Origin: Oscillospiraceae bacterium
Lineage (GTDB): Bacteria > Bacillota > Clostridia > Oscillospirales > CAG-272
Length of the DNA: 46,835 bases
Assembly: GCA_015065455.1 (NCBI GenBank)
Contig: SVQI01000013.1
Coordinates: forward strand, 1-46,835
Reading direction: 5' to 3'
Part shown: one piece after another, positions 10,198 to 37,043 of the stretch
Layout of the letters: every line of letters begins with the position of its first letter
How positions within the stretch are numbered: the stretch's first letter is position 1
Made by a program: the position numbers and the translations under genes
Notes under the pieces: model-generated
What the model saw: the letters and a program-made list of their open reading frames with translations, nothing else
The model's database searches: none
Told to the model about the DNA's origin: nothing

Positions 10198-10860
10198 TCT
10201 CCCTCAGTCATTTTCTAACGAAAATGCCAGCTCTCTCGTCAGATGGAGCTAAAAAGTTAGATTATTTCGGGAAAACGGACGTATAGCAAAAAAACGACAC
10301 TACAATTTTAGGGTTTATTGTCTTAGCCGCGTGTTCGATTGTCATCCTTGAGCAAGCCGCCGCGAGATTCTTCACTACGCTCGAGAATGACAACGCGGCG
10401 GCGCAGCGAAGGATCCCGAACATGCAGTTTATTATATGCGCCGTTCCCTACCAAATTAAGCAATATCGTTTCTGCTAACAAAGGGGGAACCGAAGGGGGT
10501 GTCCCCCTCGGTCGTTTGTGGGGTAGGGGTTTATAGGGGCGGGGGAATCGAAACCCCTGCCCCTATATGCCTTCTTTGGTTACTTTCTTGGCACGCAAGA
10601 AAGTAACGTAAAAAAAGAAAAGACATTATTATTTAGATAAATAATACGTCTTAGAAAAAGAAAAAAGCTATCGCTTTTTTTAGGGAGTACATACTATCAG
10701 GAGCTTCGCTCCCGAACCCACACAAAAGGAGCGCTTTTAAAAAAGCCCCCTCTTGACTCCCCCAAAACTTTTAACAAAAAATTTTATATTGTTTTTCTAA
10801 AATAATATTTAAATTGCGCTTTTTGAAAAAAGCCCATTTAGAAACCGCAAAAACTTTAAT
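10198..10860 (+). repeat. Dispersed mosaic repeat, copy B
   Basis: About 660 bp between the convergent ABC exporter and uvrA genes. Modules in order: (1) CTCTCCCTCAG with CATTTTC/GAAAATG and GCTC/GAGC stems; (2) a 210-bp unit with a long hairpin GCCGCCGCG/CGCGGCGGC (10342-10414); (3) a G-rich stem, the stem TATAGGGGC/GCCCCTATA (10532-10567) and the stem GTTACTTTCTTG/CAAGAAAGTAAC; (4) an AT stem ending in GTCTTAG; (5) GGAGCTTCGCTCC followed by two tails ending CAAAACTTT. No gene-like coding is seen; short open frames in it are hairpin-driven. Confidence 0.85.
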
Positions 10861-10865
10861 AAAAA

Positions 10866-10893
10866 ACCTCTCCATTTTTTGTGGAGAGGTCTT
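10866..10893 (-). terminator. Terminator after uvrA
   Basis: Stem ACCTCTCCA/TGGAGAGGT with U-runs on both sides, so it can work in both directions. It lies four bases past the uvrA stop. Confidence 0.85.
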
Positions 10894-10896
10894 TTT

Positions 10897-13725
10897 TTAT
10901 TTAAGCATTTTTTTAAGGAACATACCCGTGTATGACTTTTCATTTTTTGCAACGTCTTCAGGTGTACCAAACGCAACAATTTGTCCGCCTTTGTCTCCGC
11001 CCTCGGGACCAAGGTCGACAATGTAGTCGGAAACCTTTATTACATCAAGATTATGCTCAATTACAATAACCGTGTTACCCTCGTCAACAAGTCTGTTGAG
11101 TATCTGTATAAGCCTGTCAACGTCAGCCGTATGAAGTCCCGTCGTAGGTTCGTCAAGAATGTACACAGTTCTGCCCGTGCTTCTCTTAGCAAGCTCCGTT
11201 GCGAGCTTCACTCTCTGCGCTTCACCGCCCGAAAGCGTCGTTGACGACTGCCCTATTCTGATATATCCAAGTCCTACGTCATACAACACCTGAAGCTTGT
11301 TCTTTATCCTCGGTATTCCCTGGAAGAACTCAAGTCCTTCTTCAACCGTCATATCGAGCACGTCAAATATGCTCTTGTTCTTATATTTAACCTCAAGCGT
11401 ATCTCTGTTGTATCTCTTTCCGTGACAAACGTCGCACGTTACGTACACGTCGGGAAGAAAATGCATTTCAATTTTCTTAACGCCGTCGCCCTCGCAAGCC
11501 TCGCATCTTCCGCCTTTTACGTTAAAAGAAAATCTTCCGGGGCCATATCCCCTCTGCTTTGCATCGGGGGTCTTTGCAAACAGATCGCGTATATCGGTGA
11601 AAAGTCCCGTATAGGTTGCAGGGTTCGAACGGGGCGTTCTTCCAATGGGGCTCTGGTCTATCGCAATAACCTTATCAAGATTTTCTATACCCTCAATACT
11701 TTTATATTTTCCGGGATAGGTATAGGCTCTGTTAAGCTCGTGCGCCAAAACCTGATACAATATTCCGTTTACAAGAGACGATTTTCCCGAACCCGATACA
11801 CCCGTAACGCAGTTCAACACTCCAAGCGGAAAGCATACGTCTATATTTTTAAGGTTATGCTCGCAAGCTCCCTTTACTTTTATATATTTGCCATTCCCCT
11901 TTCTTCTCGTTTTTGGAACGGCAATCTTCTTTCTTCCCGAAAGATAATCACCCGTTATAGAATCGGTATTATTCATTATTTCCTCGGGCGTTCCCTGAGC
12001 AACTACTCTACCGCCGTGAATACCTGCGCCGGGGCCTATATCCACAATGTAATCGGACGCCATCATAGTTTCTTCATCATGCTCAACTACAATAAGGCTG
12101 TTACCCGTATCCCTGAACTTTTTCAAGGTTTCTATCAGCTTATAGTTATCCCTTTGGTGAAGACCTATACTGGGCTCGTCAAGAACGTACATAACACCCA
12201 TAAGTGAAGATCCTATCTGTGTCGCAAGTCTTATTCTCTGAGCCTCACCACCCGAAAGACTTCCCGCCTTTCTTGTCAACGTCAGATACTCAAGTCCCAC
12301 GTTTTCAAGAAATCCGAGTCTCGATTTTAATTCTTTTATAATTTCCCTTGCGATATTATATTCCATATCGGTAAATTTAAGCTGTTTTACAAATTCCAAC
12401 GCTTCCGATATCGACATCGAACAAAATTCGTGTATATTCTTTCCGCCGACAGTAACCGCCAAAGGCTCTGCCTTAAGGCGCCTTCCGTGACACTTAGGAC
12501 ATACGATATTCTCCACAAACTGATCGTAATATTCAGTCTGAATAACGTCGCTTCTCTGCTGAATAATATTTACAAAACCATCAAACTTTATAATCTGATG
12601 CTTTACGACACCCTGATATGCTCTTGTCACGTCGTACACGTCATCCGAGCCGTAACAAAGCACCTCAAAAGCTTTCTTGGAGTAATCCTTAATGGGAGTA
12701 TCAAGAGTAAAGCCGTACTTTTCGCCGACCGCAATAAACAAAGGGCCCATCCAGGTATCCTCGCCAATACTCTTAAACCCGTTACATACTATTGCTCCAT
12801 CTCTTAAAGACAGACTCTTGTCAGGGATAAGCTTGTCAACCGACATACTTCTCATTTCACCAAGCCCGGCGCACACATCGCAAGCGCCCGAGGGGTTGTT
12901 GAAAGAAAACATAGGGGGCGACATTTCTCCCATACTGATATTATGCTCTTCGCAGGCATAATTTGTTGAGTAGGCAATATCCTCGTCTTTCTGTCCGTCT
13001 CTGCCCATAATTGTAATTATTATATTTCCGTCAGCAAGTGACAAAGCATTTTCGACCGAATCGTTAAGTCTTGATCTTATGTCATCGCGCATAGCAAGAC
13101 GGTCAACTACTATATCAATATTATGCTTTTTATTTTTGTCAAGTGAAATATCTTCCCCAAGGTCATAGATTTCTCCGTCTATTCTAACTCGGACGTACCC
13201 GCTTTTTCTTGCCGATTCAAGCGTCTTTTCGTGCATACCCTTTTTGGCTCTGACGACGGGAGCCATAACCATAAACCTTTTCCCTTCAGGGATACACATA
13301 ATATTGTCAATTATCTGGTCAACCGTTTGCTGCCTTATCTCTTTACCGCATACAGGACAGTGAGGAACGCCAACTCTCGCGTACAAAAGTCTTAAATAGT
13401 CGTATATTTCCGTTACCGTTCCAACGGTCGAACGGGGGTTTTTTGACGTCGTCTTCTGGTCGATCGATATAGAAGGAGAGAGCCCCTCTATTGAATCAAT
13501 ATCAGGCTTATCAAGCTGACCTAAAAACATTCTTGCATACGACGACAAAGATTCAACAAATCTTCTGTGTCCCTCGGCATAAATCGTATCAAAGGCAAGT
13601 GATGACTTTCCCGATCCCGAAAGTCCCGTGAATACAACGAACTTATCGCGCGGAATTGTAAGATCAATATTCTTCAGGTTGTTTACCCTGACACCCTTAA
13701 CGGTTAGTTTTTTCTCTTCAGCCAT
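10897..13725 (-). CDS. uvrA: Excinuclease ABC subunit A (UvrA)
   Basis: 942 residues, the usual length. It has two ABC ATPase modules: Walker [17 protein letters not shown] with signature [17 protein letters not shown], and Walker [16 protein letters not shown] with [19 protein letters not shown]. The zinc-binding pairs are [16 protein letters not shown] and CEACEGDG...CDVCHGKR. UvrA finds bulky DNA lesions and loads UvrB. It overlaps the end of uvrB by 8 bp and shares its transcript. A 261-codon frame on the opposite strand (11422-12207) is a shadow. Confidence 0.99.
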
Positions 13726-15691
13726 TTTTCTTCTCTTTCTGCATATTTACAATAGTATCACGTAAATACGCTGCCCTTTCAAAATCAAGCCGCTTTGCGC
13801 ACTCTTTCATTTCTTTTGTCAATTCTTCAATGACCTTGTCGTAATCCTTCTTTGGTATCTTCTTTTTCTTCGGCTTTCCGTTTTCGTCATCCTTCATACC
13901 GATATCAATAACGTCAAGCACTTTCTTTTTTATCGTCTTTGGCGTAATTCCGTTCTTTTCGTTATACGCCATCTGAATCTTTCTTCTCTTTTCCGTTTCG
14001 TCAATGGCAAGACGCATAGACCTCGTTATATTATCTGCATACATAATAACCTTGCCGTTTGCATTTCTTGCCGCTCTGCCTATCGTCTGTATAAGAGACG
14101 TTTCCGAACGCAAGAATCCCTCTTTATCTGCATCAAGAATTGCAACGAGCGACACCTCGGGAATATCAAGCCCCTCTCGAAGCAAATTTATTCCAACAAG
14201 AACGTCAAATACACCCATTCTGAGATCGCGAACTATCTCCATTCGTTCAATGGTTTCTACGTTGTGGTGTATATATTTTACCTTTATCATATTGCACGAA
14301 AGGTATTCAGTAAGGTCCTCCGCCATTTTCTTTGTAAGGGTGGTAACGAGTACCCTTTCTCCCTTTTCGGCGCGTTCTCTTATCTCACCCATAAGGTCGT
14401 CAACCTGCCCCTTTATCGGTCTTACCTCAACTGAGGGATCAACGAGCCCCGTCGGTCTTATAAGCTGTTCAACAATATTCTCCGAATGTTCTTTTTCATA
14501 TTCGGCGGGAGTTGCCGATACGTAAATGACCTTATCAAGCTTCTTTTCAAATTCATCAAAAAACAAAGGTCGGTTATCATATGCCGAAGGAAGTCTAAAG
14601 CCAAATTCAACAAGATTCTGCTTTCTTGCCCTGTCACCGCCGCTCATGCCCCTTACCTGAGGCAAAGTAACGTGCGACTCGTCAACAAACAGCAAGAAAT
14701 CATCGGGGAAATAATCAAGCAACGTATACGGAACGGATCCTTCCTCTCGTCCCGATAATACTCTCGAATAGTTTTCTACCCCGTGGCAAAAACCTATCTC
14801 ACGAAGCATCTCAAGGTCGTAACGTGTTCTTTCTTCTATTCTCTGCGCCTCTATCAGCTTACCCTCTGACTGAAAGAATTTTACCCTTTCAATCATTTCT
14901 TCTTCTATCTGCGACAAAGCTGCCTCGCGTTTTTCGGGAGTCATAGCATAGTGCGATGCGGGGAATATTGACACGTAACTGAGTCTGCGAAGCAGTTCTC
15001 CCGTTACAACGTTAATTTCTGAAATTCGGTCGATTTCATCATCAAAAAACTCAACCCTTATCGCCTTATCCGACGACGATGCGGGGAATATTTCAAGAAC
15101 GTCGCCTCTTACGCGGAACTTGTTTCTGACAAAATTAATATCGTTTCTGTCATAGTTCATATCTATCAAGGCGGAAATGACTTTGTTTCTGTCTGCAATC
15201 ATTCCCGGTCTTAGTCCGAGCACCATTTTCTGATACTCGGCAGGGTCACCGAGAGAATAGATACAGGAAACGCTCGACACTATTATTACGTCTTTTCTTT
15301 CAAAAAGCGACGAGGTCGCGCTGTGTCTTAATTTATCTATTTCATCATTAACAAGTGCGTCTTTTTCAATATATAGATCTCTGCCGGGGATATAGGCTTC
15401 CGGCTTATAGTAATCATAGTAGGATACAAAAAATTCAACTGCATTTTCGGGGAAAAGCTCGCGGAATTCCGAGCATAACTGCGCGGCAAGAGTTTTGTTA
15501 TGAGCGAGGACAAGTGTAGGCTTGTTTACTTTTGCAATTATATTAGCCATTGTAAAGGTCTTACCCGAGCCCGTAACGCCGAGAAGCGTCTGCTGTTTTG
15601 CGCCGTTTTTTATTCCGTTGACTAATTTTTCAATAGCTTCAGGCTGGTCTCCCGTCGGCTTGTACGACGATATAAGCTTGAATTTGTCCAT
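13718..15691 (-). CDS. uvrB: Excinuclease ABC subunit B (UvrB)
   Basis: About 657 residues. It has helicase motif [13 protein letters not shown], the beta-hairpin region [15 protein letters not shown] that opens damaged DNA, motif II DESH, the REGLDIPEV and QTIGRAARN helicase motifs, and a C-terminal UVR coiled coil ([10 protein letters not shown]) that contacts UvrC. The ATG at 15691 has AAAGGGGAG just upstream; an upstream TTG would lie before that site. It is first in a two-gene uvrB-uvrA operon. A TATAAT box lies near 15775 on the minus strand, with no convincing -35. No LexA-type operator was recognised. Confidence 0.98.
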
Positions 15692-15823
15692 ATTTCTCCC
15701 CTTTCTGCTTTTTTTCAATTATATATTAAGTATTTTTTAACTTCTCCCCAAAGATCCAAAAATAATCAAAATATATTATACCACACTATATCAAAAAACA
15801 AAAGCCAATTTAAAAACATTTCT

Positions 15824-16570
15824 TCAAGTATGTTTTTTTCTGTATTCTTTAGGTGTAACGTCGTACACACCCTTAAACACCGCGGTAAATTTTCCAGCAT
15901 TTTCATACCCTACAGTCCTCGATATTTCGGCTATGCTGAGCGAAGTGGTTGTAAGAAGCTCCGCCGCTTTCTCTATTCTGTGCTGTTTTACGTGCGTTGC
16001 AACCGACGTGCCGTACATACTTTTAAAAAGCTCTTTTATAGTAGTAGTATTTATATGATACTTCTTTGACAGGTCCTCAATCGTAATACGTTTATCAAGA
16101 TTTTGTACCAGATACTCGTGAATATTCTCCATTATGCCAATATGCTCTGCATCTTTTACGTCGCTTTTTTCATTTTTGCAGGCGCTTGCGTGTTCTTCAG
16201 CGTTTGTTTTTGGACACGATACTTCCATTATTTTTTCAACTGCTTTATCAAGATAACGGTTTTCCTCTATGTCAGCCGCCTTGTAATATACTTCTTTCCC
16301 AACTCGTCTGCTGATAACAAGTCCGCTTTCCTTTAACGCTCTCAAATGATGGGAAACGGCGGGACTCGACATATCCACCATCGACGAAATATTTATAACA
16401 CATTCTTCACAGTGGCACAACAACCAATAAATTTTGAGTCGACTGCTGTCGCCAAGCTGTTTAAATATATTTGCAACCGTATAAAAATTTTCACTGTTCA
16501 TCAGCTCGTCAATCATTTTTTCGGCTATTTTTACGTTTCCGTGCTGATGCGGCAACTGTCTTTTACTCAT
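15824..16570 (-). CDS. Metal-responsive ArsR/SmtB regulator fused to an AraC-type DNA-binding domain
   Basis: 248 residues. Residues about 20-110 are an ArsR/SmtB winged helix with LLCHCEEC (Cys52, Cys54, Cys57), which sits where CadC-type sensors have their Cys-x-Cys metal site. The N terminus has HQH, another likely ligand region. The recognition helix is SSPAVSHHLRALKESGLV. Residues about 145-248 are a complete AraC/XylS double helix-turn-helix ending GYENAGKFTAVFKGVYDVTPKEYRKKH. One chain thus carries two different DNA-binding units. It is divergent from a metal efflux operon and has an operator in its own promoter, which suggests autoregulation. AGAGGA lies before the ATG. Confidence 0.9.
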   Translation of the reverse strand: MSKRQLPHQHGNVKIAEKMIDELMNSENFYTVANIFKQLGDSSRLKIYWLLCHCEECVINISSMVDMSSPAVSHHLRALKESGLVISRRVGKEVYYKAADIEENRYLDKAVEKIMEVSCPKTNAEEHASACKNEKSDVKDAEHIGIMENIHEYLVQNLDKRITIEDLSKKYHINTTTIKELFKSMYGTSVATHVKQHRIEKAAELLTTTSLSIAEISRTVGYENAGKFTAVFKGVYDVTPKEYRKKHT

Positions 16571-16611
16571 TCTTTTTCCTCTAGGTAACTTTTATTTTTC
16601 TATTCATAAAA

Positions 16612-16640
16612 AGTATATCACCCATCATACAATTAAACAA
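16612..16640 (-). promoter_or_regulatory. Promoter of the ArsR-AraC gene
   Basis: On the minus strand, -35 TTGTTT (16635-16640), 17 bases, -10 TATACT (16612-16617). The -35 box is inside operator 1. Confidence 0.7.
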
Positions 16641-16651
16641 GCGTTTAATTG
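16630..16651. promoter_or_regulatory. ArsR-type operator 1
   Basis: A perfect palindrome CAATTAAAC-AAGC-GTTTAATTG. It covers the -35 box of the regulator's own promoter and shares the core ATTAAACAA-CGTTTAA with the second operator near 16760. The form and core resemble known CadC/ArsR sites. Confidence 0.8.
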
Positions 16652-16714
16652 TTAATTTCTTTAATCCAAAAAGAAATTAAAATAATCCTAAAAGAAGTAA
16701 CTTTTTAAAACAGA

Positions 16715-16743
16715 TTGACCGATTATGCAAATAATAATATACT
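16715..16743 (+). promoter_or_regulatory. Promoter of the HMA protein/P-type ATPase operon
   Basis: -35 TTGACC (16715-16720), 17 bases, -10 TATACT (16738-16743). The expected start is just before operator 2. Confidence 0.78.
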
Positions 16744-16752
16744 ATTGTCGAA

Positions 16753-22689: not shown

Positions 22690-23285
22690 TGGGGCGTCGG
22701 GGAAGGGGTTCCCCGAACCGCACAAAGTAAGGTTTGGGGGTTCTCGTGGGCGTCGCCCCCTACCAAATTAGGCAATACCACTTTTGCAAACCAAGGGGGG
22801 TACCGAGGGAGGAATTTTTTTATAAAAAACAAAAAGTATAACCAAACCTTCCATCTTTCGCAAACGATGGGGGTGCAAAGGGGGTAATCCCCCTTTGTCG
22901 TTTGCGGGGTAGGGGGTTACGGGGGTGGGGGAATCGAAACCCTCACCCCCCGTATGCCTTCTTTGGTTACTTTCTTGGCACGCAAGAAAGTAACGTAAAA
23001 AAGAAAAGACAATATTATCTGTTTGAAACGTTTGCTTTTCTCTCCCTCAGTCATTTTCTAACGAAAATGCCAGCGTCTACTGCGGTTCGGTCACGGCTCG
23101 GCTCTGACATCACACCGTGATGTCATTCACTCCCTCGCCGCCGCTTCGCTACCTCGTCAGATGGAGCCGAGAATTACGCGCTTCACGCGTAAAAAGGCAC
23201 AGAATGTCAGCTTCTTCGCTCCCGAATATATGACCAAAGGTGCTTTTTGAAAAAGCTCCTTTGGAATCCGCAAAAACTTTACAAA
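22690..23285 (+). repeat. Dispersed mosaic repeat, copy C
   Basis: About 600 bp between gpmI and a lipoprotein gene. It holds the lead-in CCTACCAAATTAGGCAATACC, two tandem G-rich hairpin units, the stem TACGGGGGTG/CACCCCCCGTA, the stem GTTACTTTCTTG/CAAGAAAGTAAC, module 1 split by a 78-bp insert (about 23075-23152), a GCGCTTC/GCG stem and a tail ending CAAAAACTTTA. The order differs from copy B: module 1 lies after, not before, the G-rich units. Short open frames here are not supported as genes. Confidence 0.85.
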
Positions 23286-27813: not shown

Positions 27814-29235
27814 TTACTCAAGCGAGTTCTGTTTATTTGTTTTTGAAATTTCCTTAACCATCTTGCCCAATGCAAAGAGTGCTATAACGTTGGGGATTAC
27901 CATAAGGTTATTGAACATATCTGTCAAATCCCAAACGAGTGTGTTTGAAAGGATAGAACCTGTGAAGATGAATGCGATTGAAATGATTGAATATACGATA
28001 TTAAACTTCTTACCAAAGAGGTAAACAGCATTGATTCTACCGAAGAGGTTCCAACCGATAATTGTAGAGAATGCAAAGAAGAACAAGCAGATAGCAACAA
28101 AGATGTTACCGATGTTTGCATTACCGAAGGCAATACCGAATGCCTGCTGAGCAAGGTTTGTGTTTTCAAGGCCGTTTGCAGCTGCAACGTCGGCAAGAAC
28201 TGCTCCGTTGAAGTTTGCGGGGTTGAGCGCGCCTTCACCTACAAAGAACGTTGAAATAACGATAAGAGCTGTAAACGTAAGAACAACGAAAGTATCGATA
28301 AACAAACCGATCATAGCGCAAACACCCTGATCGTGAGGCTTTGCAACGTTAGCCTGAGCATGCGCGTGAGGTGTAGAACCCATACCTGCTTCGTTAGAGA
28401 AAAGACCTCTTTTTGCACCCTGTGTCAATGCTACGTAAATTGCAGCACCAACGCTACCGCCAAGGGCTGCTTTTGCATTAAATGCATACTTAAAGATCAT
28501 ACCAAATGTTTCGGGAATGTGCTTAAAGTTTACACCGAGAACCATAATACCGCCGATGATGTAGAGAGTTGCCATAAAGGGAACCATCTTTTCAACAACA
28601 GCACCGATACGCTGTACACCGCCGATGAAAATAAATGCGCAGATCGCAGAAACAATAAGACCAGTAGCCCACGTGGGAATGCTAAATGCTGTCTTGCATG
28701 ACTGTGCAATTGAGTTTGACTGAACCATCGAACCCATAAAGCCCAACGCGAGAACTGCCGCGATAGCAAAGAATATTGCAAGGAACTTACCGAATTTGCC
28801 CTTGAATACGCTTGTTATGTAGTAAACGGGACCACCCTTTACTGTTCCGTCTTCAGCAACTACACGTGTTTTCTGAGCGAGAACTGCTTCTCCGTAAATT
28901 GTAGCCATACCGAAGAATGCAATTATCCACATCCAGAATATAGCGCCGGGACCACCGATAAGAATAGCACCGCAGGCACCTACGATGTTACCTGTACCAA
29001 CCTGAGCTGCAATAGCTGTTGCGAGAGACTGGAATGAGCTCAAGCCGCTCTTGTGTTTTTCTCCGTCCAATGAGAAGTTTCCTATTGTTCTTTTCCAACC
29101 TTCCTTAAAGCAACGAATCTGAACAAAACGGGTTGCTATTGTGTAGTAAAGACCTACACCAACCAAAAGAATAATAAGAATGTAGTTTGATAAATAAGTG
29201 TTTACGTTAGCGACAATTTTTGAAATGTTGTCCAT
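27814..29235 (-). CDS. Sodium:alanine/glycine symporter (AGCS family)
   Basis: 473 residues with about ten membrane helices. Family hallmarks are IATRFVQIRCF near the N terminus, ATAIAAQVGTGNIVGACGAILIGGPGAIFWMW (substrate and Na+ region) and GLFSNEAGMGSTPHAHAQA. It imports alanine or glycine with Na+. The upstream tandem glycine riboswitch points to glycine as the physiological substrate. Some Clostridia use such uptake to feed glycine cleavage, but no cleavage genes lie in this window. The ATG is preceded by AGGAGG. Confidence 0.96.
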   Translation of the reverse strand: MDNISKIVANVNTYLSNYILIILLVGVGLYYTIATRFVQIRCFKEGWKRTIGNFSLDGEKHKSGLSSFQSLATAIAAQVGTGNIVGACGAILIGGPGAIFWMWIIAFFGMATIYGEAVLAQKTRVVAEDGTVKGGPVYYITSVFKGKFGKFLAIFFAIAAVLALGFMGSMVQSNSIAQSCKTAFSIPTWATGLIVSAICAFIFIGGVQRIGAVVEKMVPFMATLYIIGGIMVLGVNFKHIPETFGMIFKYAFNAKAALGGSVGAAIYVALTQGAKRGLFSNEAGMGSTPHAHAQANVAKPHDQGVCAMIGLFIDTFVVLTFTALIVISTFFVGEGALNPANFNGAVLADVAAANGLENTNLAQQAFGIAFGNANIGNIFVAICLFFFAFSTIIGWNLFGRINAVYLFGKKFNIVYSIISIAFIFTGSILSNTLVWDLTDMFNNLMVIPNVIALFALGKMVKEISKTNKQNSLE

Positions 29236-29703: not shown

Positions 29704-30190
29704 CCCTCCTCAGATGGAGGAAAAAAATAAATTTTTTAAAAAACGGGAGGAGCAAGCCCTCCCCTACTAAATTAAACAATACCGTCTCTGCAAACGATGG
29801 GGGGGTACCGAGGGAGGAACGCCCTCGGTCGTTTGCGGGGTAGGGGTTTATAGGGGCGGGGGAATCGAAACCCCTGCCCCTATACGCCTTCTTTGCTCCA
29901 CTTTCTTTGCGCAAAGAAAGTGGTAAAAAAGAAAAAGACAATATTGTTTTATCAAACAATTTGTCTTAGAAAAAGAAAAAAGCTATCGCTTTTTTCAAAG
30001 GAGTACATACTGTCAGGAGCTTCGCTCCCGAACCCTTGACCAAAGGCGCTTTTTGAAAAAAGCTCCTTTGGAATCCGCAAAAACTTTAAATAGATAATCA
30101 TTTATTATTTTTCTATATTATTTTTTAAAAATAATATTATAATTGCGCTTTTTGAACAAAGCGCCTTTGGATGAACGCAAAAACTTTTAA
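29704..30190 (+). repeat. Dispersed mosaic repeat, copy D
   Basis: About 490 bp. It opens with CCTCCTCAGATGGAGG, then the G-rich hairpin ACCGAGGG/CCCTCGGT, the stem TATAGGGGC/GCCCCTATA and a variant stem CCACTTTCTTTG/CAAAGAAAGTGG where the other copies have GTTAC.../...GTAAC. Next are an AT stem ending in GTCTTAG, GGAGCTTCGCTCC, and two successive tails ending CAAAAACTTT, an arrangement shared only with copy B. No gene is seen. Confidence 0.85.
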
Positions 30191-30275: not shown

Positions 30276-30815
30276 TTACATTTTTATTAAATCCGTAAGA
30301 TTTGTTTTCTTCATTATCTTGATAATTAAAACAGACAGAACTACCCCCGCCAATGCCTGCATTGTATTTGCAGGAACACCGATAAGCGCCGCCGCAAAGT
30401 TAATTCCCGGCAGTGCCGTTTCATACATAAGATATCCCAACACCATAATCACTTCACCAATAGCGGCGGCTACAGTTATCGGAATTAGCTTATAATCATT
30501 TTTATTTTTCGATAAAAGTCTATATATCATACAGGAAACAAATGCCATAAGAAATTTTATAACAAACGTTCCGGGAACGTATATTATATGCGCATACCAA
30601 GCGTCACCCAAGGCACAGCCAATTCCCGCCGCCAGTCCGCCATATATAGGTCCGAGCAATAATCCGCTTGCCAAAACCACACAATCACCAAAGTTAACGT
30701 ATCCCGTAGCACCCGGACCGGGTATGTGTATGTGTATAACTACCGTTGCCACAAAAGCAAGCGCCGCAAACAATGCAGTATACACTGTCCTTCTTATCAC
30801 TTTCGTGTTTTTCAA
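30276..30815 (-). CDS. ECF transporter substrate-binding (S) component
   Basis: About 179 residues with five to six membrane helices. FGDCVVLASGLLLGPIYGGLAAGIGCALGDAW is typical of ECF-type vitamin-transporter S components, and the early helix VYTALFAALAFVATVVI contains the usual small-residue pattern for contact with the T subunit. It captures a vitamin or cofactor precursor and uses a shared EcfAA'T energising module, which is not in this window. The substrate is not clear from sequence or from a riboswitch. GGAG directly abuts the ATG at 30824, leaving no spacing, so the TTG three codons later (30815) is the more likely start. Confidence 0.85.
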   Translation of the reverse strand: MKNTKVIRRTVYTALFAALAFVATVVIHIHIPGPGATGYVNFGDCVVLASGLLLGPIYGGLAAGIGCALGDAWYAHIIYVPGTFVIKFLMAFVSCMIYRLLSKNKNDYKLIPITVAAAIGEVIMVLGYLMYETALPGINFAAALIGVPANTMQALAGVVLSVLIIKIMKKTNLTDLIKM

Positions 30816-30839
30816 AGCAATCATCTCCGTAATTTCATA

Positions 30840-30880
30840 ACTTTCGTACTTTATTATACACCCCGAAAGTCAAATTGCAA
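30840..30880 (-). promoter_or_regulatory. ECF gene promoter flanked by an inverted repeat
   Basis: On the minus strand, -35 TTGCAA (30875-30880), 16 bases, -10 TATAAT (30853-30858). Inverted copies of ACTTTCG (30840-30846) and CGAAAGT (30864-30870) bracket the -10 box, as an operator would. Confidence 0.6.
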
Positions 30881-30899
30881 TACCTGAATTTTAAAAAAA

Positions 30900-31691
30900 T
30901 CATATCTTTTCATATTCAGTAATCAAAAATTCAACCCTTGTTACAAGATCATTATAACCGTCAAGCTTATGTATATCTTTTTGCGAGGTATTATAATAAT
31001 ATGGAGTCATTTTAAAAAGCGAAATAATATCCTCATTTGTTTCGAGATTTATCTCGTATTTAACCTCTTTTTGCGATTTTATTACAAAGCCATCTCTTGA
31101 CGGCTCAACGTAGGCGTTTGTATAAGGATTATCGTATACCGCTTTTTTTAGCTCCATAAGGTGATTTTCCATAGGCGTAACCATGATCAGTCTGCCGTTC
31201 GGCTTTATCAATCTAAGATACTCCGACGGACTGTCGGGCGCAAAGATGTTCACCACTACGTCAACCGACTCATCACAAAGCGGTATATCATATATACTCG
31301 CTACGGCAAACCTCGCATTTTTACATTTTCTTGCGGCGATTTTCAACGCTTCTTTTGAAATATCAATTCCAAAAACGTCGTTATTTTCGGAAAAACACGA
31401 GGTGTAATACCCCTCTCCGCAACCCGCATCAAGCAAAACGTTGCCTTTGCCGATTATAAATTCAATTTCATCCCTCAGCTTGCCGTAATATCCCTTTTCA
31501 AGAAAGGACTGTCTTGCTTTCACCATAAGCTTATCATCGCCGTGAGTTCCCTGCTTGTTTGAAATAAGCAAATTAACGTAACCCTGCTTCGCTTTGTCAA
31601 AGCAGTGATTTTTTGGACAGGTAAACGATTTTTCTTCTTCTGAAAGCGGCAAACTGCATACGGGACAGAAAAACTGCGTTTGATTAGACAT
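30900..31691 (-). CDS. rlmA: 23S rRNA (guanine-N1)-methyltransferase RlmA-like
   Basis: 263 residues. The N-terminal zinc site is Cys9, Cys12, Cys25, His29 (CPVC...CPKNH), followed by CFDKAKQGYVNLL, the RlmA signature. The methyltransferase domain has LLDAGCGEGYY (S-adenosylmethionine binding) and VDVVVNIFAPDSPSEYLRLIKPNGRL. RlmA I methylates G745 and RlmA II methylates G748 of 23S rRNA; Gram-positive members are often the G748 type, which affects tylosin and telithromycin response. I cannot decide which from sequence. It lies 16 bp after the DUF4317 gene, probably in one operon. Confidence 0.93.
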   Translation of the reverse strand: MSNQTQFFCPVCSLPLSEEEKSFTCPKNHCFDKAKQGYVNLLISNKQGTHGDDKLMVKARQSFLEKGYYGKLRDEIEFIIGKGNVLLDAGCGEGYYTSCFSENNDVFGIDISKEALKIAARKCKNARFAVASIYDIPLCDESVDVVVNIFAPDSPSEYLRLIKPNGRLIMVTPMENHLMELKKAVYDNPYTNAYVEPSRDGFVIKSQKEVKYEINLETNEDIISLFKMTPYYYNTSQKDIHKLDGYNDLVTRVEFLITEYEKI

Positions 31692-31707
31692 AATTAAACC
31701 TCAGAAT

Positions 31708-32835
31708 TTATTTAATATCGATATCTATTCCGTTCAGCATAACCCCGCCGTCTGCTCTGATCATAATATATTTTACTCCGTTTATGATCTGGGTCGAAAC
31801 AAGGTCTTTTCTTTCGGGATTTACCTTTATTGAAACGTCTGCCGTCTCAAGCTGAAATTTATTTACGTCAACAATACTCTTTGGAGCAATTTCTGCATTT
31901 TTTCCAAACTGCTCATCAAACTTTTCTCCGAAATCATCAACCTTTTGCTGTTCGATTCCGCAAAAACCAAGAATATTCTTCAACGTATCCTTCGAAAGAG
32001 AAAGAGGTTCGTCGTCTTTTGAATTTTTATGCTCCTCAATAAGCTCCGCCACCTGCTCGTGTACGCTTCTTACTACCTCAAAATCGCACTCTTCCGACAA
32101 GGTATCCTTTAAACAGCAGCCGAAATTTTCTTTCTGTTCAGCCGCCGACATAGGAAGGTCTACATTAAATATATTCTGTATAAATTCCGCGTGAACATTT
32201 GAAACGTCGTGCGTATAATAAAGCGCACTGTAAATATTCGCCGCTCTGTTATCAAACGAAGGAAACATAAAGCCCATTTCCGTAGCTCCAAGCACAGTCT
32301 GTAACGAAACAGAACGGAAAAGCTTGTCTGCATCCTTAAAATAGAGTCCATTGTTTATCGGTTTTATAGGACAGATACTGCATATTATGTACGAAAACAT
32401 CTGCGAGGACAAATCGTCCTTATCTCCACTCTTTGAATATGTGAAAACGTCGTACGTATCGTACGCAAGCAAAATTGCATAACCGCATTCAAACTTAACA
32501 CTCTCAATAACCTTTGAATAAAACTTATTCAAAATCTCTTCGTCTTTCAGTTCAGTTGAACGAAGTTCCGAAAGAAGCTTATGCTCCTCACTGCTTTCTA
32601 CCTGTTTGGTGCTGAAGTTCATACTGAGAAGATTCGTTCCCTGCCCTCCCGAGAGGGATTTTTTCATTATTGCAAGAAACTTTTCGGATTCCTCGGTCGA
32701 CGTCGAGGCAAGAGGCTGAGAAAAATGAGACACGATTCTCTGTTCTGTGTTAACTATACACCCTTTTATCGTGGTAATATTATTCTTATCGGGGCGAAAA
32801 CGTCTTCGTATTTCGCGTAAATCTTTATCTGTCAT
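31708..32835 (-). CDS. DUF4317 family protein
   Basis: About 375 residues from the chosen start. The N terminus MTDKDLREIRRRFRPDKNNITTIKGCIVN matches the DUF4317 family of Clostridia. No catalytic motif or membrane segment is seen, and the function is not known. The C-terminal third ends with an isolated basic/beta stretch (VSTQIINGVKYIMIRADGGVMLNGIDIDIK). I chose the ATG at 32835 because GGAG lies six bases upstream; the longer frame starts in the promoter. First gene of a probable two-gene unit with rlmA. Confidence 0.88.
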   Translation of the reverse strand: MTDKDLREIRRRFRPDKNNITTIKGCIVNTEQRIVSHFSQPLASTSTEESEKFLAIMKKSLSGGQGTNLLSMNFSTKQVESSEEHKLLSELRSTELKDEEILNKFYSKVIESVKFECGYAILLAYDTYDVFTYSKSGDKDDLSSQMFSYIICSICPIKPINNGLYFKDADKLFRSVSLQTVLGATEMGFMFPSFDNRAANIYSALYYTHDVSNVHAEFIQNIFNVDLPMSAAEQKENFGCCLKDTLSEECDFEVVRSVHEQVAELIEEHKNSKDDEPLSLSKDTLKNILGFCGIEQQKVDDFGEKFDEQFGKNAEIAPKSIVDVNKFQLETADVSIKVNPERKDLVSTQIINGVKYIMIRADGGVMLNGIDIDIK

Positions 32836-32866
32836 AATGTTCTCCATATCATTTTTATTAAAAATA

Positions 32867-32895
32867 ATTATATCACTTTTCGTTACCAAAAACAA
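32867..32895 (-). promoter_or_regulatory. Promoter of the DUF4317-rlmA unit
   Basis: On the minus strand, -35 TTGTTT (32890-32895), 17 bases, -10 TATAAT (32867-32872). Confidence 0.7.
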
Positions 32896-32941
32896 TAGGT
32901 AAAATTTTTATGCTATTTTTGTCGAAAATTAAAAATCTATG

Positions 32942-32969
32942 TTGAATAATTGTGAAAAGGATGTATAAT
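32942..32969 (+). promoter_or_regulatory. Promoter of bcp
   Basis: -35 TTGAAT (32942-32947), 16 bases, -10 TATAAT (32964-32969). Confidence 0.65.
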
Positions 32970-33003
32970 TATAATGTCAAGTTTTTTTCAGGAGGAATTA
33001 TTT

Positions 33004-33456
33004 ATGATAGAAACAGGAATGAAAGCACCTGATTTTACGTTACCCGACAAAAACGGCGATATGGTTTCTCTTTCTGATTTTTTAGGAAAAAAGGTCGTTT
33101 TATACTTTTATCCAAAAGATAACACTCCGGGATGCACTCGCCAAGGCTGTGCGTTTGCTCAAAACTATAATGAATTCAAGAAAAGAAATATTGAAATCAT
33201 TGGCATAAGCCGCGACAGCATCACCTCACACGTAAAATTTGCTGAAAAATATAATCTTCCGTTTATTCTTTTGTCCGATACCGAATTACAGGCTATTAAA
33301 GCTTACGATGTGTGGCAGGAAAAGAAAATGTGCGGAAAAGTCGGTATGGGCGTCGTTCGTACAACGTTTATTATTGACGAAAACGGAAATATCGAAAAAG
33401 TAATGCCAAAAGTAAAACCCGACACCAACGCTGCTGAAATTTTGCAAAGCCTATAA
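33004..33456 (+). CDS. bcp: Thioredoxin-dependent thiol peroxidase (Bcp/PrxQ type)
   Basis: 150 residues. The peroxiredoxin motif is YPKDNTPGCTRQGC, with peroxidatic Cys44 and likely resolving Cys49, the atypical 2-Cys PrxQ spacing. Arg in VVRTTFIID completes the active site. It reduces H2O2 and organic peroxides using thioredoxin. I chose the ATG at 33004 with AGGAGG eight bases upstream, inside the longer open frame. It is followed after 33 bp by the ZIP transporter gene and may be co-transcribed with it. Confidence 0.95.
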   Translation: MIETGMKAPDFTLPDKNGDMVSLSDFLGKKVVLYFYPKDNTPGCTRQGCAFAQNYNEFKKRNIEIIGISRDSITSHVKFAEKYNLPFILLSDTELQAIKAYDVWQEKKMCGKVGMGVVRTTFIIDENGNIEKVMPKVKPDTNAAEILQSL

Positions 33457-33489
33457 AAAATATATCTATCTAATGAGGTACAAAAATAT

Positions 33490-34248
33490 ATGGAAATAGT
33501 TATACTGACCGCTTTTGGCGTCGGCGGTGCAACCGTTATCGGCGCACTTATCGGGTTTGTATTTAAAAAAACGAGCCATAAATTTAACGACTACGTTCTT
33601 GCTTTTGCCGCAGGCGTAATGCTTGCAGCAGCGGTATTCGGTCTTATAAGCGAGTCACTCGAGCTTGGTGGAGAATACCCGTTACTCACTATGATCATCG
33701 GTGTTTTGTGCGGCGCATTGTTCGTTACTGCGATGGACAAGGTTGTTCCTCACCTGCACAGACTTACGGGGATAGACATAGAATCGCATTCAGGAAAAAA
33801 CGATAAGATAAATAAAGTATTGCTCTTTATCATAGCCATCGCAATACATAATCTGCCCGAGGGCCTTGCCGCAGGAGTCGGATTTGGAACAGGTAACACG
33901 GCTGAGGCTCTTACAATTGCAGGCGGAATAGCACTTCAGAATATCCCCGAGGGTATGGTGATTATTGCTCCTATGCTTTCTGCAGGTGTAGGCAAAGGCA
34001 GAACATTCTTTATTGCTATGGTCACAGGACTTGTTGAGGTTGTCGGTACGCTTATCGGTTATTTTGCAGTTACCGTTTCAAACGCGATACTTCCCTTTGC
34101 TCTTGCTTTTGCGGGTGGAACAATGCTTTACGTTATAAGTGATGAAATGATTCCCGAAACACATTCGCACGGTAACGAGACGGGAGCAACTTATTCTCTT
34201 GTACTCGGATTTTGTCTTATGCTCGCGTTTGATACAATTATTGCATAA
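33490..34248 (+). CDS. ZIP-family divalent metal transporter
   Basis: 252 residues, about eight membrane helices. The conserved helices IAIHNLPEGLAAGVGFG and GGIALQNIPEGMVIIAPML carry the HNxPEG and QNxPEG motifs that form the binuclear metal centre. A charged, His-containing loop (HLHRLTGIDIESHSGKND) lies between helices 3 and 4. It moves Zn2+, Fe2+ or Mn2+ into the cytoplasm. It is close to the ZupT/GufA group; metal choice is not readable. A terminator follows. Confidence 0.94.
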   Translation: MEIVILTAFGVGGATVIGALIGFVFKKTSHKFNDYVLAFAAGVMLAAAVFGLISESLELGGEYPLLTMIIGVLCGALFVTAMDKVVPHLHRLTGIDIESHSGKNDKINKVLLFIIAIAIHNLPEGLAAGVGFGTGNTAEALTIAGGIALQNIPEGMVIIAPMLSAGVGKGRTFFIAMVTGLVEVVGTLIGYFAVTVSNAILPFALAFAGGTMLYVISDEMIPETHSHGNETGATYSLVLGFCLMLAFDTIIA

Positions 34249-34272
34249 TACTGATTATAATTATATAAAGAA

Positions 34273-34306
34273 AAACGCATCTTTTAGCCAAAAGATGCGT
34301 TTTTTG
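34273..34306. terminator. Terminator between ZIP gene and small membrane protein gene
   Basis: A 13-bp stem AAACGCATCTTTT/AAAAGATGCGTTT followed by a T-run. It can serve the convergent genes on both sides. Confidence 0.88.
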
Positions 34307-34552
34307 TTATTCTTCTTTGATTGCCATATCTGCAACAAGCGCTCCGCAAAATATAAGAGTAAAGCTCATAACCGCGCTTTCAAGCATCGTATATGCCGTA
34401 TAGCTTATCCATGCCCTTTCGTCGTTCGGCGTATTCAATATAAATAACAATATGTACGTAAATACAAACGTGATAAGCGGCATACCGATTCTTAATATCA
34501 AAGTAGGAAGCCGTTTCATTTTCGGTATTTTTATATTCAATTTACTTCTCAT
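34307..34552 (-). CDS. Small membrane protein of unknown function
   Basis: 81 residues with two predicted membrane helices (about residues 20-42 and 55-75) and a short polar link (NTPNDERAWISY). No family recognised. An AAAGG lies 11 bases before the ATG, which is weak, but a good promoter lies upstream and a terminator just downstream. This makes a real single-gene unit more likely than chance. Confidence 0.6.
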   Translation of the reverse strand: MRSKLNIKIPKMKRLPTLILRIGMPLITFVFTYILLFILNTPNDERAWISYTAYTMLESAVMSFTLIFCGALVADMAIKEE

Positions 34553-34592
34553 TGTTGGTACTGCCTTTCTATTATATTTTTCTCACATATTG

Positions 34593-34621
34593 ATTATACA
34601 ATATATTATTGCTTGTGTCAT
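34593..34621 (-). promoter_or_regulatory. Promoter of the small membrane protein gene
   Basis: On the minus strand, -35 ATGACA (34616-34621), 17 bases, -10 TATAAT (34593-34598). The rest of 34622-34806 is without recognised features. Confidence 0.6.
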
Positions 34622-34806
34622 TGGTGAGTTTAAGGTCAATTTAGAGTATTTTGCCAAAAAAGTTTTCGACACTTTTCGACAAAGTTGCGGAAAAGTTTTT
34701 ATATATACGCGCAATATGTCAACACACGTTGAAAAAGACTTTCAAAAAGCGACAAAAAACAGCATAAACAGCTTATTATTTGTCGAAATTTTGAATTAAA
34801 ATTTTC

Positions 34807-34835
34807 TTTACAATTCGTTCTTTTAATAGTATAAT
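34807..34835 (+). promoter_or_regulatory. Promoter of the DUF6514-like gene
   Basis: -35 TTTACA (34807-34812), 17 bases, -10 TATAAT (34830-34835). Confidence 0.75.
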
Positions 34836-34839
34836 AAAA

Positions 34840-34877
34840 AACCCCAGTAAAGCCGTCGGCTTTATACTAAAAGGGTT
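34840..34877 (+). other. Structured leader at the 5' end of the DUF6514-like mRNA
   Basis: Starting at about the expected transcription start, an outer stem AACCC/GGGTT encloses a perfect inner stem TAAAGCC/GGCTTTA with loop GTC. It ends 16 bases before the start codon, upstream of AGAGG. It could protect the 5' end or tune translation. No known riboswitch is recognised. Confidence 0.55.
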
Positions 34878-34893
34878 TATAAAGAGGTACAGA

Positions 34894-35142
34894 ATGGAGT
34901 GTATTACATATTACTTAAGATGCGAAAAATATCTTACTGACAACGGAGAATATTGTATTTCGTACGGAATAGCCGCGGGAACGTTTGAAGACGGCGTACT
35001 ATGCGTAATGGATTCAGCATCAAACGTCTCACCCGATAGAATTCAGGTAGAAAGACTTGTTGATTTATTTAACAGTCAGAACCTTTCCCTTACACACTTC
35101 CGCGATGTTCTTGACGATATGCTGAATTTTTATATTTATTAA
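34894..35142 (+). CDS. Small DUF6514-like protein
   Basis: 82 residues, soluble, beginning with a beta-rich part (ITYYLRCEKYLTDNGEYCISYGIAAG) and ending with LVDLFNSQNLSLTHFRDVLDDMLN. The YGI and L...HFRDVLDD features resemble the DUF6514 family of Clostridia. The function is unknown. It has a near-consensus promoter and a structured leader, so it is probably well expressed. AGAGG precedes the ATG. Confidence 0.75.
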   Translation: MECITYYLRCEKYLTDNGEYCISYGIAAGTFEDGVLCVMDSASNVSPDRIQVERLVDLFNSQNLSLTHFRDVLDDMLNFYIY

Positions 35143-35209
35143 TTTTGGATACCCTCTCCTGATTATTAAACAGGAATAGAGTTTACACACACTCTCTATG
35201 GGTGAAATA

Positions 35210-35246
35210 CAAAATAAAATATCCCTGTAATTAAAATCACAGGGAT
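35210..35246 (-). terminator. Terminator after the membrane glycosyltransferase gene
   Basis: Stem ATCCCTGT/ACAGGGAT followed on the minus strand by ATTTTATTTTG. Confidence 0.75.
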
Positions 35247-35268
35247 ATTTTACTATCACTTATTATTT

Positions 35269-36225
35269 TTATTCTTGCTCATCATCACTTAGGTTTTTCT
35301 CAATTATAAATCTCGGTCTTTCCTTGGTTTCAAGATAGATTTTTCCGATGTATTCTCCTATTACGCCGATAGAAAGCATTATTAGTCCTCCGATTGCCCA
35401 GAGAGAGCATATCAGACTCGCCCAACCAGAAACCGTTTCGCCAATTGCCCAACGGCTTATAAAATAGATTATCATAATCAAGCTTATGACAAATATCATA
35501 AATCCCGTAAAGGTGATGTATCTTATCGGCTTGGTACTGAGAGATGTTATTCCTTCAAATGCAAACGAAAGCATTTTTTTGAAGGGATATTTACTCTCGC
35601 CCGCAAAACGCTCTTCGCGCTCGTAGTAGACGTTTGACGACTTAAAGCCTATCATGGGCACTATACCTCTTAAAAACAGGTTGACCTCTTTGAAATCAGC
35701 TAAAGCTTCAACCGCTCTTTTTGACATCAATCTGTAGTCGGCGTGGTTGAATACCGTTTCTGCTCCTAAAAAATTCATTATCTTATAGAAGGTTTCGGCA
35801 GTAAAACGCTTGAAAAATGAATCCTTTTTTCTTTTTGAACGAACACCGTATACGATGTCGCAACCGTTGTAATATTCGTCAATCATTTTGTCGACAGCGT
35901 TAATATCATCCTGCAAGTCAGCATCCATTGAAATTGTTACGTCAGCATAGTTGACAGCGGTAAGAAGCCCTGCAAGAAGTGCGTTCTGATGACCTCTGTT
36001 ACGGCTTAAATTTATTCCTGTAAACAGCGGGTCCTCTCGGTGAAGCTGTTCTATTAATTCCCACGTTTTATCCTTAGAGCCGTCGTTTACAAACATAACG
36101 CGGCTTTTTTCACTTATTTTATTTGCTTCTATTAAAAAATTAAGCTTTTGTTTCAGTCGCTTTGCAGTTTCGGGTAAAACCTCTTCCTCGTTGTAGCAAG
36201 GAACCACTATATAAAGCTTGTCCAT
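35269..36225 (-). CDS. Membrane glycosyltransferase family 2 (GtrB/DPMS-like)
   Basis: 318 residues. The GT-A domain (about 1-230) has VPCYNEEEVL, FVNDGSKDKTW, SRNRGHQNALLAGL, the metal motif MDADLQDD and ADYRLMSKRA. Two C-terminal membrane helices follow (about 232-255 and 266-292), then a cytoplasmic tail. This is the GtrB/YkoT-like layout, in which sugar is moved from a nucleotide donor to undecaprenyl phosphate for wall or teichoic-acid decoration. No flippase gene lies next to it. GAGGAG precedes the ATG. Confidence 0.93.
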   Translation of the reverse strand: MDKLYIVVPCYNEEEVLPETAKRLKQKLNFLIEANKISEKSRVMFVNDGSKDKTWELIEQLHREDPLFTGINLSRNRGHQNALLAGLLTAVNYADVTISMDADLQDDINAVDKMIDEYYNGCDIVYGVRSKRKKDSFFKRFTAETFYKIMNFLGAETVFNHADYRLMSKRAVEALADFKEVNLFLRGIVPMIGFKSSNVYYEREERFAGESKYPFKKMLSFAFEGITSLSTKPIRYITFTGFMIFVISLIMIIYFISRWAIGETVSGWASLICSLWAIGGLIMLSIGVIGEYIGKIYLETKERPRFIIEKNLSDDEQE

Positions 36226-36351
36226 TTTTTAACAACTCCTCATTCGGCTTTTTATTTGCCGATTTTTTATATACGTAAAATTTATATTCTAATTATATCA
36301 TACCATATTTTTTTGTCAACATAACAGTAATGACTGTAAAATCCAATCTGT

Positions 36352-37043
36352 AATGTAATTCACTCCCTCGCCGCCGCTTCGCTACCTCCTCAGATTGAGC
36401 TAAATAGTTAGATTATTTCGGGAAAACGGACGTATAGCAAAAACGCCTCTACAATTTTAGGGTTTATTGTCTTAGCCGCGTGTTCGATTGTCATCCTTGA
36501 GCAAGCCGCCGCGAGATTCTTCACTACGCTCAAGAATGACAACGCGGCGGCGTAGCGAAGGATCCCGAACATGCAGTTTATTATATGCGCCGTTCCCTAC
36601 CAAATTAGGCAATACCATTTTTGCGAACAAAGGGGGGGCCGAGGGAAGAGCATTTTCATAAAAAAACAAAAAGTATAACCTAACTTTCCATCTTTTGCAA
36701 ATGATGGGGGTGCAAAGGGGGTAATCCCCCTTTGTCGTTTGTGGGGTAGGGGTTTATAGGGGCGGGGGAATCGAAACCCCTGCCCCTATACGCCTTCTTT
36801 GGTTACTTTCTTGGCACGCAAGAAAGTAACGTAAAAAAGAAAAGACAATATTATCTGTTTGAAACGTTTGCTTTTCTCTCCCTCAGTCATTTTCTAACGA
36901 AAATGCCAGCTCCCTCGTCAGATGGAGCCGAGAATTACGCGCTTCGCGCGTAAAAAGGCACAGAATGTCAGGAGCTTCGCTCCCGAACCCACACAAAAGG
37001 AGCGCTTTTAAAAAAGCGCCCTCTTGACTCCCCCAAAACTTTA
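36352..37043 (+). repeat. Dispersed mosaic repeat, copy E
   Basis: About 690 bp between a glycosyltransferase and an SDR gene. Order: a CACTCCCTCGCC...CTACCTCCTCAG piece that also occurs inside copy C; module 2 with the stem GCCGCCGCG/CGCGGCGGC, nearly identical to copy B; two tandem G-rich units as in copy C; the stem TATAGGGGC/GCCCCTATA; the stem GTTACTTTCTTG/CAAGAAAGTAAC; an uninterrupted module 1 (36880-36929); a GCGCTTCGCGC stem; GGAGCTTCGCTCC; and the tail CCCAAAACTTT. Read against copies B and C it shows that modules have moved. The 36226-36351 stretch before it is AT-rich with nothing recognised. Confidence 0.85.

Follow-up and report, generated by a model that had tools for sequence, protein, structure and literature searches.

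A dispersed bacterial repeat with a three-strand sequence code predicted to fold as a triple-helix pseudoknot

Introduction

Palindromes dispersed through bacterial genomes are usually regarded as simple hairpins whose use is unknown. Whether such hairpins are kept for their folded form, and as which nucleic acid, is the question raised by a repeat in an Oscillospiraceae bacterium. The stretch of DNA analysed here (the window) is the whole of contig SVQI01000013.1, 46,835 nucleotides long and contig 5 of a genome of 1.54 Mb in 30 contigs (G000 hereafter). A sequence-only reading of the window had found compensatory base changes in three hairpins of the repeat and had taken them as a sign that the folded form, as RNA or as cruciform DNA, matters. 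It had proposed a covariation test over all copies and had named gene conversion between the arms as the alternative. Here we follow the hairpins, termed H1, H2 and H3 from 5′ to 3′, through the genus and across bacteria.

Results and Discussion

Copies of the repeat in the window

Copies B, C, D and E lie on the plus strand at about 10450–10640, 22750–23010, 29740–29960 and 36580–36860, respectively. Copy A lies on the minus strand at the contig start, where the contig edge truncates it and leaves it without H3. Positions below are on the plus strand unless stated. The G-rich stem H1 reads GCCGAGGG/CCCTCGGC in copy A (56–78, minus strand), ACCGAGGG/CCCTCGGT in D (29807–29829) and CAAAGGGGG/CCCCCTTTG in C (22876–22897) and E (36713–36734), as had been described; copy B (10490–10511), which that description did not list, carries a third plus-strand version, CCGAAGGGGG/CCCCCTCGG, with a bulged A. 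The arms of H2 are TATAGGGGC/GCCCCTATA in copies B (10532–10545 and 10554–10567, with the loop AATCGAAA), D (29849–29862 and 29871–29884) and E (36755–36768 and 36777–36790). H2 of copy C (22918–22931 and 22940–22954), which is TACGGGGGT, differs from them at the three pairs already reported and has in addition one extra C in its 3′ arm. Copy A has another H2 arm type (2–38, minus strand), with its H3 cut off where the contig begins. The H3 stem is GTTACTTTCTT/AAGAAAGTAAC in copies B, C and E and CCACTTTCTTT/AAAGAAAGTGG in D, where two pairs are changed, as had been noticed, and the outermost G-C pair is also lost.

Variation within the genus

We counted 53 sites with the pattern CTTTCTT..AAGAAAG in the genome, as compared with two for the reversed control pattern, and TTCTTTG-N-CTTTCTT occurs four times in the window against 0.01 expected. 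A 486-bp repeat query gave 90 BLAST matches in G000 and 3, 5, 22 and 2 in four genomes of the same genus. From five genomes we collected 55 distinct three-hairpin cores, of which 52 were aligned; a copy at the edge of a contig, a truncated one and one from another genus were omitted. H1, H2 and H3 assort independently, one H1 type being found with several H2 types and vice versa, and each hairpin acts as a recombining cassette. The number of independent events is therefore the number of types, which is small (eight for H2, parsed in 54 of the 55 cores, and five for H1), so that a covariation test within the genus is unconvincing. Our own tree-aware test follows the plan of R-scape: the substitutions of each branch are re-dealt over the columns, and pairs are scored by a G-statistic with average product correction. 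For 51 distinct rows of the window's family, 12 of 4560 column pairs reached E < 0.05. They were mostly markers that distinguish types, with one clear stem pair (columns 68 and 106), and a few further stem pairs fell at E of 0.06–0.24. Compensatory change within the window's own family thus proves little.

Exchanging arms between types, each type being used once, supported H2, where only 2 of 40320 permutations paired as well as the true partners did. The arms of H2 fit their own partners better than swapped ones. The corresponding value for H1, 8 of 120 permutations, makes its arm pairing, including that of the copies in the window, weakly supported.

H2 has a further strand. A G-rich stretch on its 5′ side mirrors the purine arm: read backwards, it places G at the G-C pairs and either A or T at the A-T pairs. 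In copy B this third strand is GGGGTAGGGG at 10520–10529 (the whole feature spanning 10520–10567); in copy C it occupies 22906–22916 (22906–22954) and in copy E 36743–36752 (36743–36790), and in copy D a G-rich third strand likewise precedes the arms (29839–29884). These assignments follow from the sequence and the tests on types. Over the eight H2 types, 12 of 40320 permutations obeyed the purine triplex code as well as the natural combinations, or 2 of 5040 when one natural recombinant was left out. Plain mirror identity was weaker (542 of 40320 with all eight types and 16 of 5040 without the recombinant). A direct repeat was rejected, with 18636 of 40320 permutations as good by identity and 6468 of 40320 by the code (677 of 5040 without the recombinant). 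The four G-tracts at H2 would also allow a G-quadruplex. H2 would be built on a plan similar to that proposed below for H3, with a purine third strand, as a DNA-type triplex or a G-quadruplex, and its purine code suits DNA better than RNA.

A three-strand code in H3 across bacteria

The core pattern of H3, TTTGGTTACTTT-N-AAAGTAAC with all letters outside the fixed core left free, was found in 45 stretches in IMG/VR and in at least 118 in GTDB genomes. H3 with a real stem occurs in at least six phyla, as judged by us from the organisms that the record titles name: Pseudomonadota, Bacteroidota, Bacillota, Desulfobacterota, Fusobacteriota and Lentisphaerota. A Nitrospirota match had a poor stem and a Saccharibacteria match none. 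After eight rows without a stem extension were dropped and near-identical rows collapsed, the 153 parsed rows left 127. Outwards from the TTT, the upstream letters equal those of the downstream arm and then turn into their Watson–Crick partners. The upstream strand (L1) mirrors the first arm of the stem (S2a) at 371 of 508 positions inside the stem, against 203.4 in shuffles (maximum 235), T standing opposite T at 261 of 300 positions and C opposite C at 92 of 114; among T/C positions in the first six there were 260 TT, 11 TC, 8 CT and 90 CC. Beyond L1, a run of at least four letters complementary to the hairpin loop (S1) was present in 65 of the 127 rows, against 7.8 in shuffles (maximum 16). 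By its letters, this is a pyrimidine third-strand code (T.A:T and C.G:C), after which comes a second stem formed with the hairpin loop. Such an arrangement, 5′-S1a-L1-S2a-S1b-L3-S2b, is that of an H-type pseudoknot, in which L1 is predicted to lie in the major groove.

As the code was first spotted on this set, it was tested on others. A held-out set, with T.G in place of T-A at the third pair, comprised 22 stretches giving 20 distinct rows, 18 of them with a stem; L1 mirrored S2a at 59 of 81 positions against 33.1 (maximum 50), and S1 was present in 12 of 18 rows against 2.2 (maximum 7). When the base of S2 was left free, 38 of 53 rows paired at three or four of the four positions against 13.3 (maximum 21), through variants such as GTTA/TAAC, CCTA/TAGG, ATTA/TAAT, CTTA/TAAG and GGTA/TACC, and 24 of the 53 had an S1 of at least four pairs against 4.4 (maximum 14); a few loci of this set also belong to the first. 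Within a single high-copy genome (G050), 24 loop types kept the mirror at 96 of 96 of the first four positions (at most 88 in shuffles) and S1 in 16 of 24 (at most 15), and none of 5000 shuffles reached either value. In the tree-aware test on 120 H3 rows, 10 of 351 column pairs reached E < 0.05, and none fell outside the columns of S2, the third strand and S1. They comprise five pairs of S2, favoured by the choice of rows, third-strand positions 1 and 2 with both of their partners, and one S1 pair with its register shifted by one. Third-strand positions 3 to 5 and the remaining S1 pairs did not fall below E < 0.05 in this test.

In the window, H3 of copy B (10568–10607) consists of S1a TGCC (10568–10571), L1 TTCTTTG (10572–10578), S2a (10579–10589), S1b GGCA (10590–10593) and S2b (10597–10607), as given by the sequence and the pan-bacterial code. 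Copy C (22955–22994) has the same S1 (TGCC at 22955–22958 and GGCA at 22977–22980), with L1 at 22959–22965, S2a at 22966–22976 and S2b at 22984–22994. Copy D, of the other type (29885–29923), has S1a CGC (29885–29887), L1 (29888–29895), S2a (29898–29908), S1b GCG (29909–29911) and S2b (29913–29923). Copy E (36792–36830) has an S1 of three pairs only, GCC (36792–36794) with GGC (36813–36815), with L1 at 36795–36801, S2a at 36802–36812 and S2b at 36820–36830. Since S1 has only 3–4 bp in these copies and L3 is short, the knot may be marginal there. Of 55 candidates in the genome as a whole, 50 were retained as copies, including two on contig C16 that are a different sequence. S1 was GTGCC with GGCAC in 30 of the 50, ATGCC with GGCAC (4 bp) in 11, ATGCC with GGCAT in one and ACGCC or ACTCC with TGCGCA in four. 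In a relative (G003), S1 was ACACC with TGTGCA in 3 of 19 copies. The evidence for the H3 fold, which is strong, is convincing only in the pan-bacterial sets. The claim that the folded form matters is supported there and by the H2 arm swaps, rather than by the window copies on which it was first based or by H1. The three hairpins are present as described; they are not plain, in that H3 carries a third strand and a putative pseudoknot stem and H2 a third strand.

Genomic position and spread

Gene orientations were taken from mechanical open reading frames, not from annotation. Of the 47 G000 copies with a callable neighbour (from the 50 that include the two of different sequence), 42 point the 3′ side of H3 at the 3′ end of a gene. 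The same holds at 74 of 112 pan-bacterial loci, in a set where 35 of 159 rows fall within an ORF and may be spurious. The gene on the 5′ side showed no sense bias across bacteria (54 versus 50), and the plus strand is therefore not regularly a 3′ UTR. Among 21 rows from G050, of which six fall within an ORF and may likewise be spurious, 13 face a gene end and in 7 of these 13 the stop codon is 1–8 bp from H3.

The repeat is numerous in some genomes and absent from their relatives. Thirty genomes chosen for having H3 contained up to 231 matches each (the control had none in all 30); G050 had 150, and 20 relatives drawn had none. One strict H3 pattern was present in 2 of 391 genomes of the class, the window's own among them, so the family is patchy. 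A single site can also be with or without the repeat between species: at the pgm locus, which has copy C in G000, G003 (whose Pgm is 97% identical) carries different short modules and lacks H1-H2-H3. H3 looks like a passive mobile element.

No partner gene emerged from the searches made. The Y1 (RAYT-type) transposase PF01797 was absent from G000, G003, G042, G050 and G068 and present in 7 of 15 genomes searched, and reverse transcriptase PF00078 was absent from G000, G003, G042, G050 and G047 and present in 4 of 15; both were rejected as partners, neither being common to the high-copy genomes. Among 1079 ORFs at 234 loci no neighbouring gene recurred over phyla, and the largest clusters (nine and eight loci) all came from the viral set. 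Blocks in G042 bounded by two outward-facing H3 copies have frames of at most 238 codons that differ between copies, and we judged them to hold no gene. A plasmid search with one Xanthomonas-type copy returned 14 records, with no annotated feature under any match.

Comparison with known systems

By their letters, both H3 and H2 belong to the general kind of intrastrand triplex motif, in which a third strand obeys a Hoogsteen or reverse-Hoogsteen code on a hairpin stem of the same strand. The intrastrand triplex repeats PIT, BoxC and TM_ECO have G/C-rich purine motifs (5′-CCCTCNCCC..), and the TM_ECO DNA triplex has been demonstrated in vitro (PMC4666352). Like the present repeats, they are dispersed and intergenic, with one strand able to form a hairpin and a third strand, and H2 shares their purine code. 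H3 differs from them in its pyrimidine code and its putative pseudoknot stem; the main text of PMC4666352 describes no such stem, and the words pseudoknot, covariation and GGTTAC are absent from it. The second loop of H3 in copies B, C and E has 7 nt, against the 1–6 nt allowed in the search described in that text. The TM_ECO/PIT/BoxC pattern, CCCTCNCCC-N3-6-GGGNGAGGG-N3-GGGNGAGGG, had no match in the window.

Triple-helix H-type pseudoknots of riboswitches such as SAM-V (PMC6061858) have the strand order of H3 and the major-groove triple helix, of L1 on S2, that is predicted for it. H3 departs from them in lacking a fixed ligand-type core, in its number (up to 231 matches in a genome) and in its place next to the 3′ ends of genes. 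The assignment of H3 to triple-helix H-type pseudoknots derives from the sequence code, and S1, S2 and the L1-S2 triples of the molecule are predicted. REP and BIME elements are likewise dispersed palindromes that adjoin gene 3′ ends in mosaics. We know of no third strand or pseudoknot described for them, and they differ in that the window's genome is without the REP-type (Y1) transposase. The RNA pseudoknots of type III antitoxins differ in standing in repeats that precede a toxin gene. Those of CptIN and ToxIN (PMC4627078) are, like H3 as predicted, short bacterial H-type pseudoknots. A toxin-antitoxin role with a ToxN partner was rejected, as none of 16 genomes had a match above the ToxN cut-off and one weak match was seen, in G047.

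At gathering score, Rfam 15 placed no family over H3 in the window or at 37 other loci (17 and 20), and matches below that score were judged to be chance. The main text of a survey of bacterial stem-loop repeats (PMC2267715) is without the words pseudoknot, triple and GTTAC. We found no description of H3 or its motif letters in the open-access papers searched. Given the lack of an Rfam match, of the TM_ECO pattern and of a literature description, we place H3 in no named family; the nearest repeats described so far are the intrastrand triplex motifs PIT, BoxC and TM_ECO.

The folding strand and the nature of the molecule

Wobble pairs tell the strands apart, as G.U on one strand is A.C on the other. 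Viral stretches with T.G at the third S2 pair number 22, and there are none with C.A; the free-base set, counted by eye, has ten rows with G.T and one with A.C; and among 29 distinct H2 hairpins 27 have G.U on the plus strand and two on the minus strand. Counts were neutral for S2 extensions (3 and 3) and S1 runs (9 and 7) and leaned the opposite way for H1 (1 and 5), and at the second S2 pair the sole real-stem case is C.A, with no T.G. On balance, the plus strand folds alone. Of the two forms first proposed, cruciform DNA is therefore disfavoured by most of these counts, and the RNA form is favoured by the neighbourhood of H3 described below.

Three features are demonstrated as patterns of letters: the stem S2, a loop L1 that mirrors S2a (T set against T-A pairs, C against C-G pairs) and a stem S1 that joins the hairpin loop to the letters beyond L1. 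We infer that H3 repeats act as RNA, are mobile and have a function. The explanation that we prefer, with slightly better than even confidence, is that H3 is a dispersed repeat whose plus strand is transcribed and would fold in the cell as a triple-helix pseudoknot, acting as RNA and spreading passively. REP hairpins and triple-helix RNAs resist 3′-to-5′ decay or transcription running in. The H3 fold may similarly resist 3′-to-5′ decay or transcription entering from the neighbour, and the repeat would spread as a passive mobile element by machinery encoded elsewhere. Three-way covariation indicates which extra strand and second stem matter, so that the fold and its effect could be tested by scrambling L1 or S1 alone, and the family may provide many natural triple-helix sequences for structural work.

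The strongest competitor, which we consider unlikely, is action of the fold in single-stranded DNA: on the plus strand, during replication or transfer, an intrastrand triplex or the end of a mobile element would form and be recognised by a transposition or repair protein. H2 obeys the purine triplex code, which DNA forms well, and the related TM_ECO triplex forms as DNA in vitro (PMC4666352). Patchy occurrence at high copy number and presence or absence at one orthologous site agree with it, as does the absence of a steady transcription sense, and all 29 G050 rows have a purine directly after H3, as a target preference might leave. Against it, the Y1 transposase is absent from the window's genome, G042, G050 and G068 and reverse transcriptase from G000, G042 and G050, and the adjoining TwoAYGGAY hairpins and their link to CsrA point to RNA.

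It is improbable that the paired changes arose with no selection on the fold, through cassette recombination and arm-to-arm template-switch repair of imperfect palindromes. Independent assortment of the hairpin types and the weak within-genus test would fit such an origin. Gene conversion between the arms can make complementary arms but would not make a mirror-image third strand. Template switching likewise produces neither this strand nor the border between L1 and S1, where mirror gives way to complement, and in H3 the third strand and S1 are independently linked to the stem. Cruciform DNA, with hairpins of conserved shape extruded by both strands, agrees with the long, well-paired intergenic arms and the two neutral wobble counts, but it predicts a strand symmetry that several counts contradict, gives no reason for L1 or S1, and is very improbable.

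TwoAYGGAY hairpins and CsrA beside H3

Returning to H3 as a transcribed pseudoknot, its 5′ neighbourhood provides the argument for RNA, as the H2 purine code and the absent steady transcription sense provide that for DNA. TwoAYGGAY (RF01731), an orphan RNA motif of two AYGGAY-loop hairpins, lies on the same strand 5′ of H3 in some genomes (PMC2864571, PMC4333381 and PMC11701678 for the motif), and its Rfam model leaves H3 uncovered. It has been proposed to bind CsrA (PMC4333381). The repeats in the window have no AYGGAY hairpin: RF01731 had no match there at gathering score, and none of the hairpins occurred in the 300 nt before the 50 G000 copies. A CsrA gene is present in all five genomes with AYGGAY hairpins and in 2 of 11 others (Fisher's exact test: p = 0.005), a difference that lineage may explain. 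H3 may add a second domain to TwoAYGGAY and link this RNA to CsrA. In the wider reading, to which we give a little less than even chances, H3 would be an RNA domain present in high copy number across bacteria: a triple-helix pseudoknot with a simple three-strand code whose geometry is kept across phyla while the letters change. It would be joined to varied 5′ parts (G-rich triplex hairpins here, CsrA-type TwoAYGGAY elsewhere), spread passively, and serve as a protective end or a sponge scaffold. In two Pseudomonas genomes (loci L173 and L219), about 70 nt separate the end of TwoAYGGAY from an H3 that follows it on the same strand. Of 171 H3 copies, 28 have a hairpin with an AYGGAY loop no more than 150 nt away on their 5′ side, and two have one on their 3′ side.

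Neighbours of H3: AYGGAY hairpins and a phage gene

Among 171 copies of H3, the repeat's hairpin with a pan-bacterial core, AYGGAY hairpins lie 5′ of H3 in 28 and 3′ of it in two. The gene for CsrA, a protein that TwoAYGGAY RNA has been proposed to bind (PMC4333381), was found in all five genomes that have AYGGAY hairpins near H3, and in two of the 11 other genomes. Two loci with H3 carry the orphan Rfam RNA motif TwoAYGGAY (RF01731) on the same strand as H3 (L173, positions 2610–2775; L219, positions 4286–4448), and in both H3 follows about 70 nt 3′ of it.

In nine loci of viral contigs (L128, L139, L368, L373, L378, L384, L386, L388 and L402), H3 lies near one conserved phage gene, at a median distance of about 1.5 kb. 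As a guess, this gene could be a terminase.

Arrangement of repeat copies and modules

Repeats stand at or close to assembly contig ends, as at position 1 of the window and on contigs C7, C14, C18, C20 and C25. The counted copy numbers are therefore likely underestimates.

On the 5′ side of copy C, at 22692–22760, lies a G-rich hairpin module. Inspection by eye places the reverse complement of this module within the second hairpin, H2, in several further copies, such as those on C6, C7 and C21 of the window's genome; it looks as though modules insert into each other. Additional repeat modules, with the sequences TCTCTCCCTCAGTCA..., GGAGCTTCGCTCC... and TTGTCATCCTTGAGC... at 10290–10496, form a mosaic with H1–H3 at 10193–10250, 23036–23167 and 36872–36990. 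Copy D adjoins a glycine riboswitch (RF00504; 29336–29444, minus strand), which is on the same strand as an AgcS-type amino acid carrier gene (27814–29235).

In the Oscillospiraceae MAG G042, blocks of about 0.73, 0.92 or 1.0 kb are often flanked by two H3 copies facing outward. Such H3-bounded blocks occur on contigs C13, C35, C41 and C44 (loci L471, L472, L475, L476 and L484) and on C20 and C27 (L473 and L474); no open frame common to these blocks (~0.73–1.0 kb) was found. In G050, another genome with H3, a purine directly follows the H3 3′ end in all 29 rows (18 A, 11 G), and the flank past that purine varies by eye among the rows.
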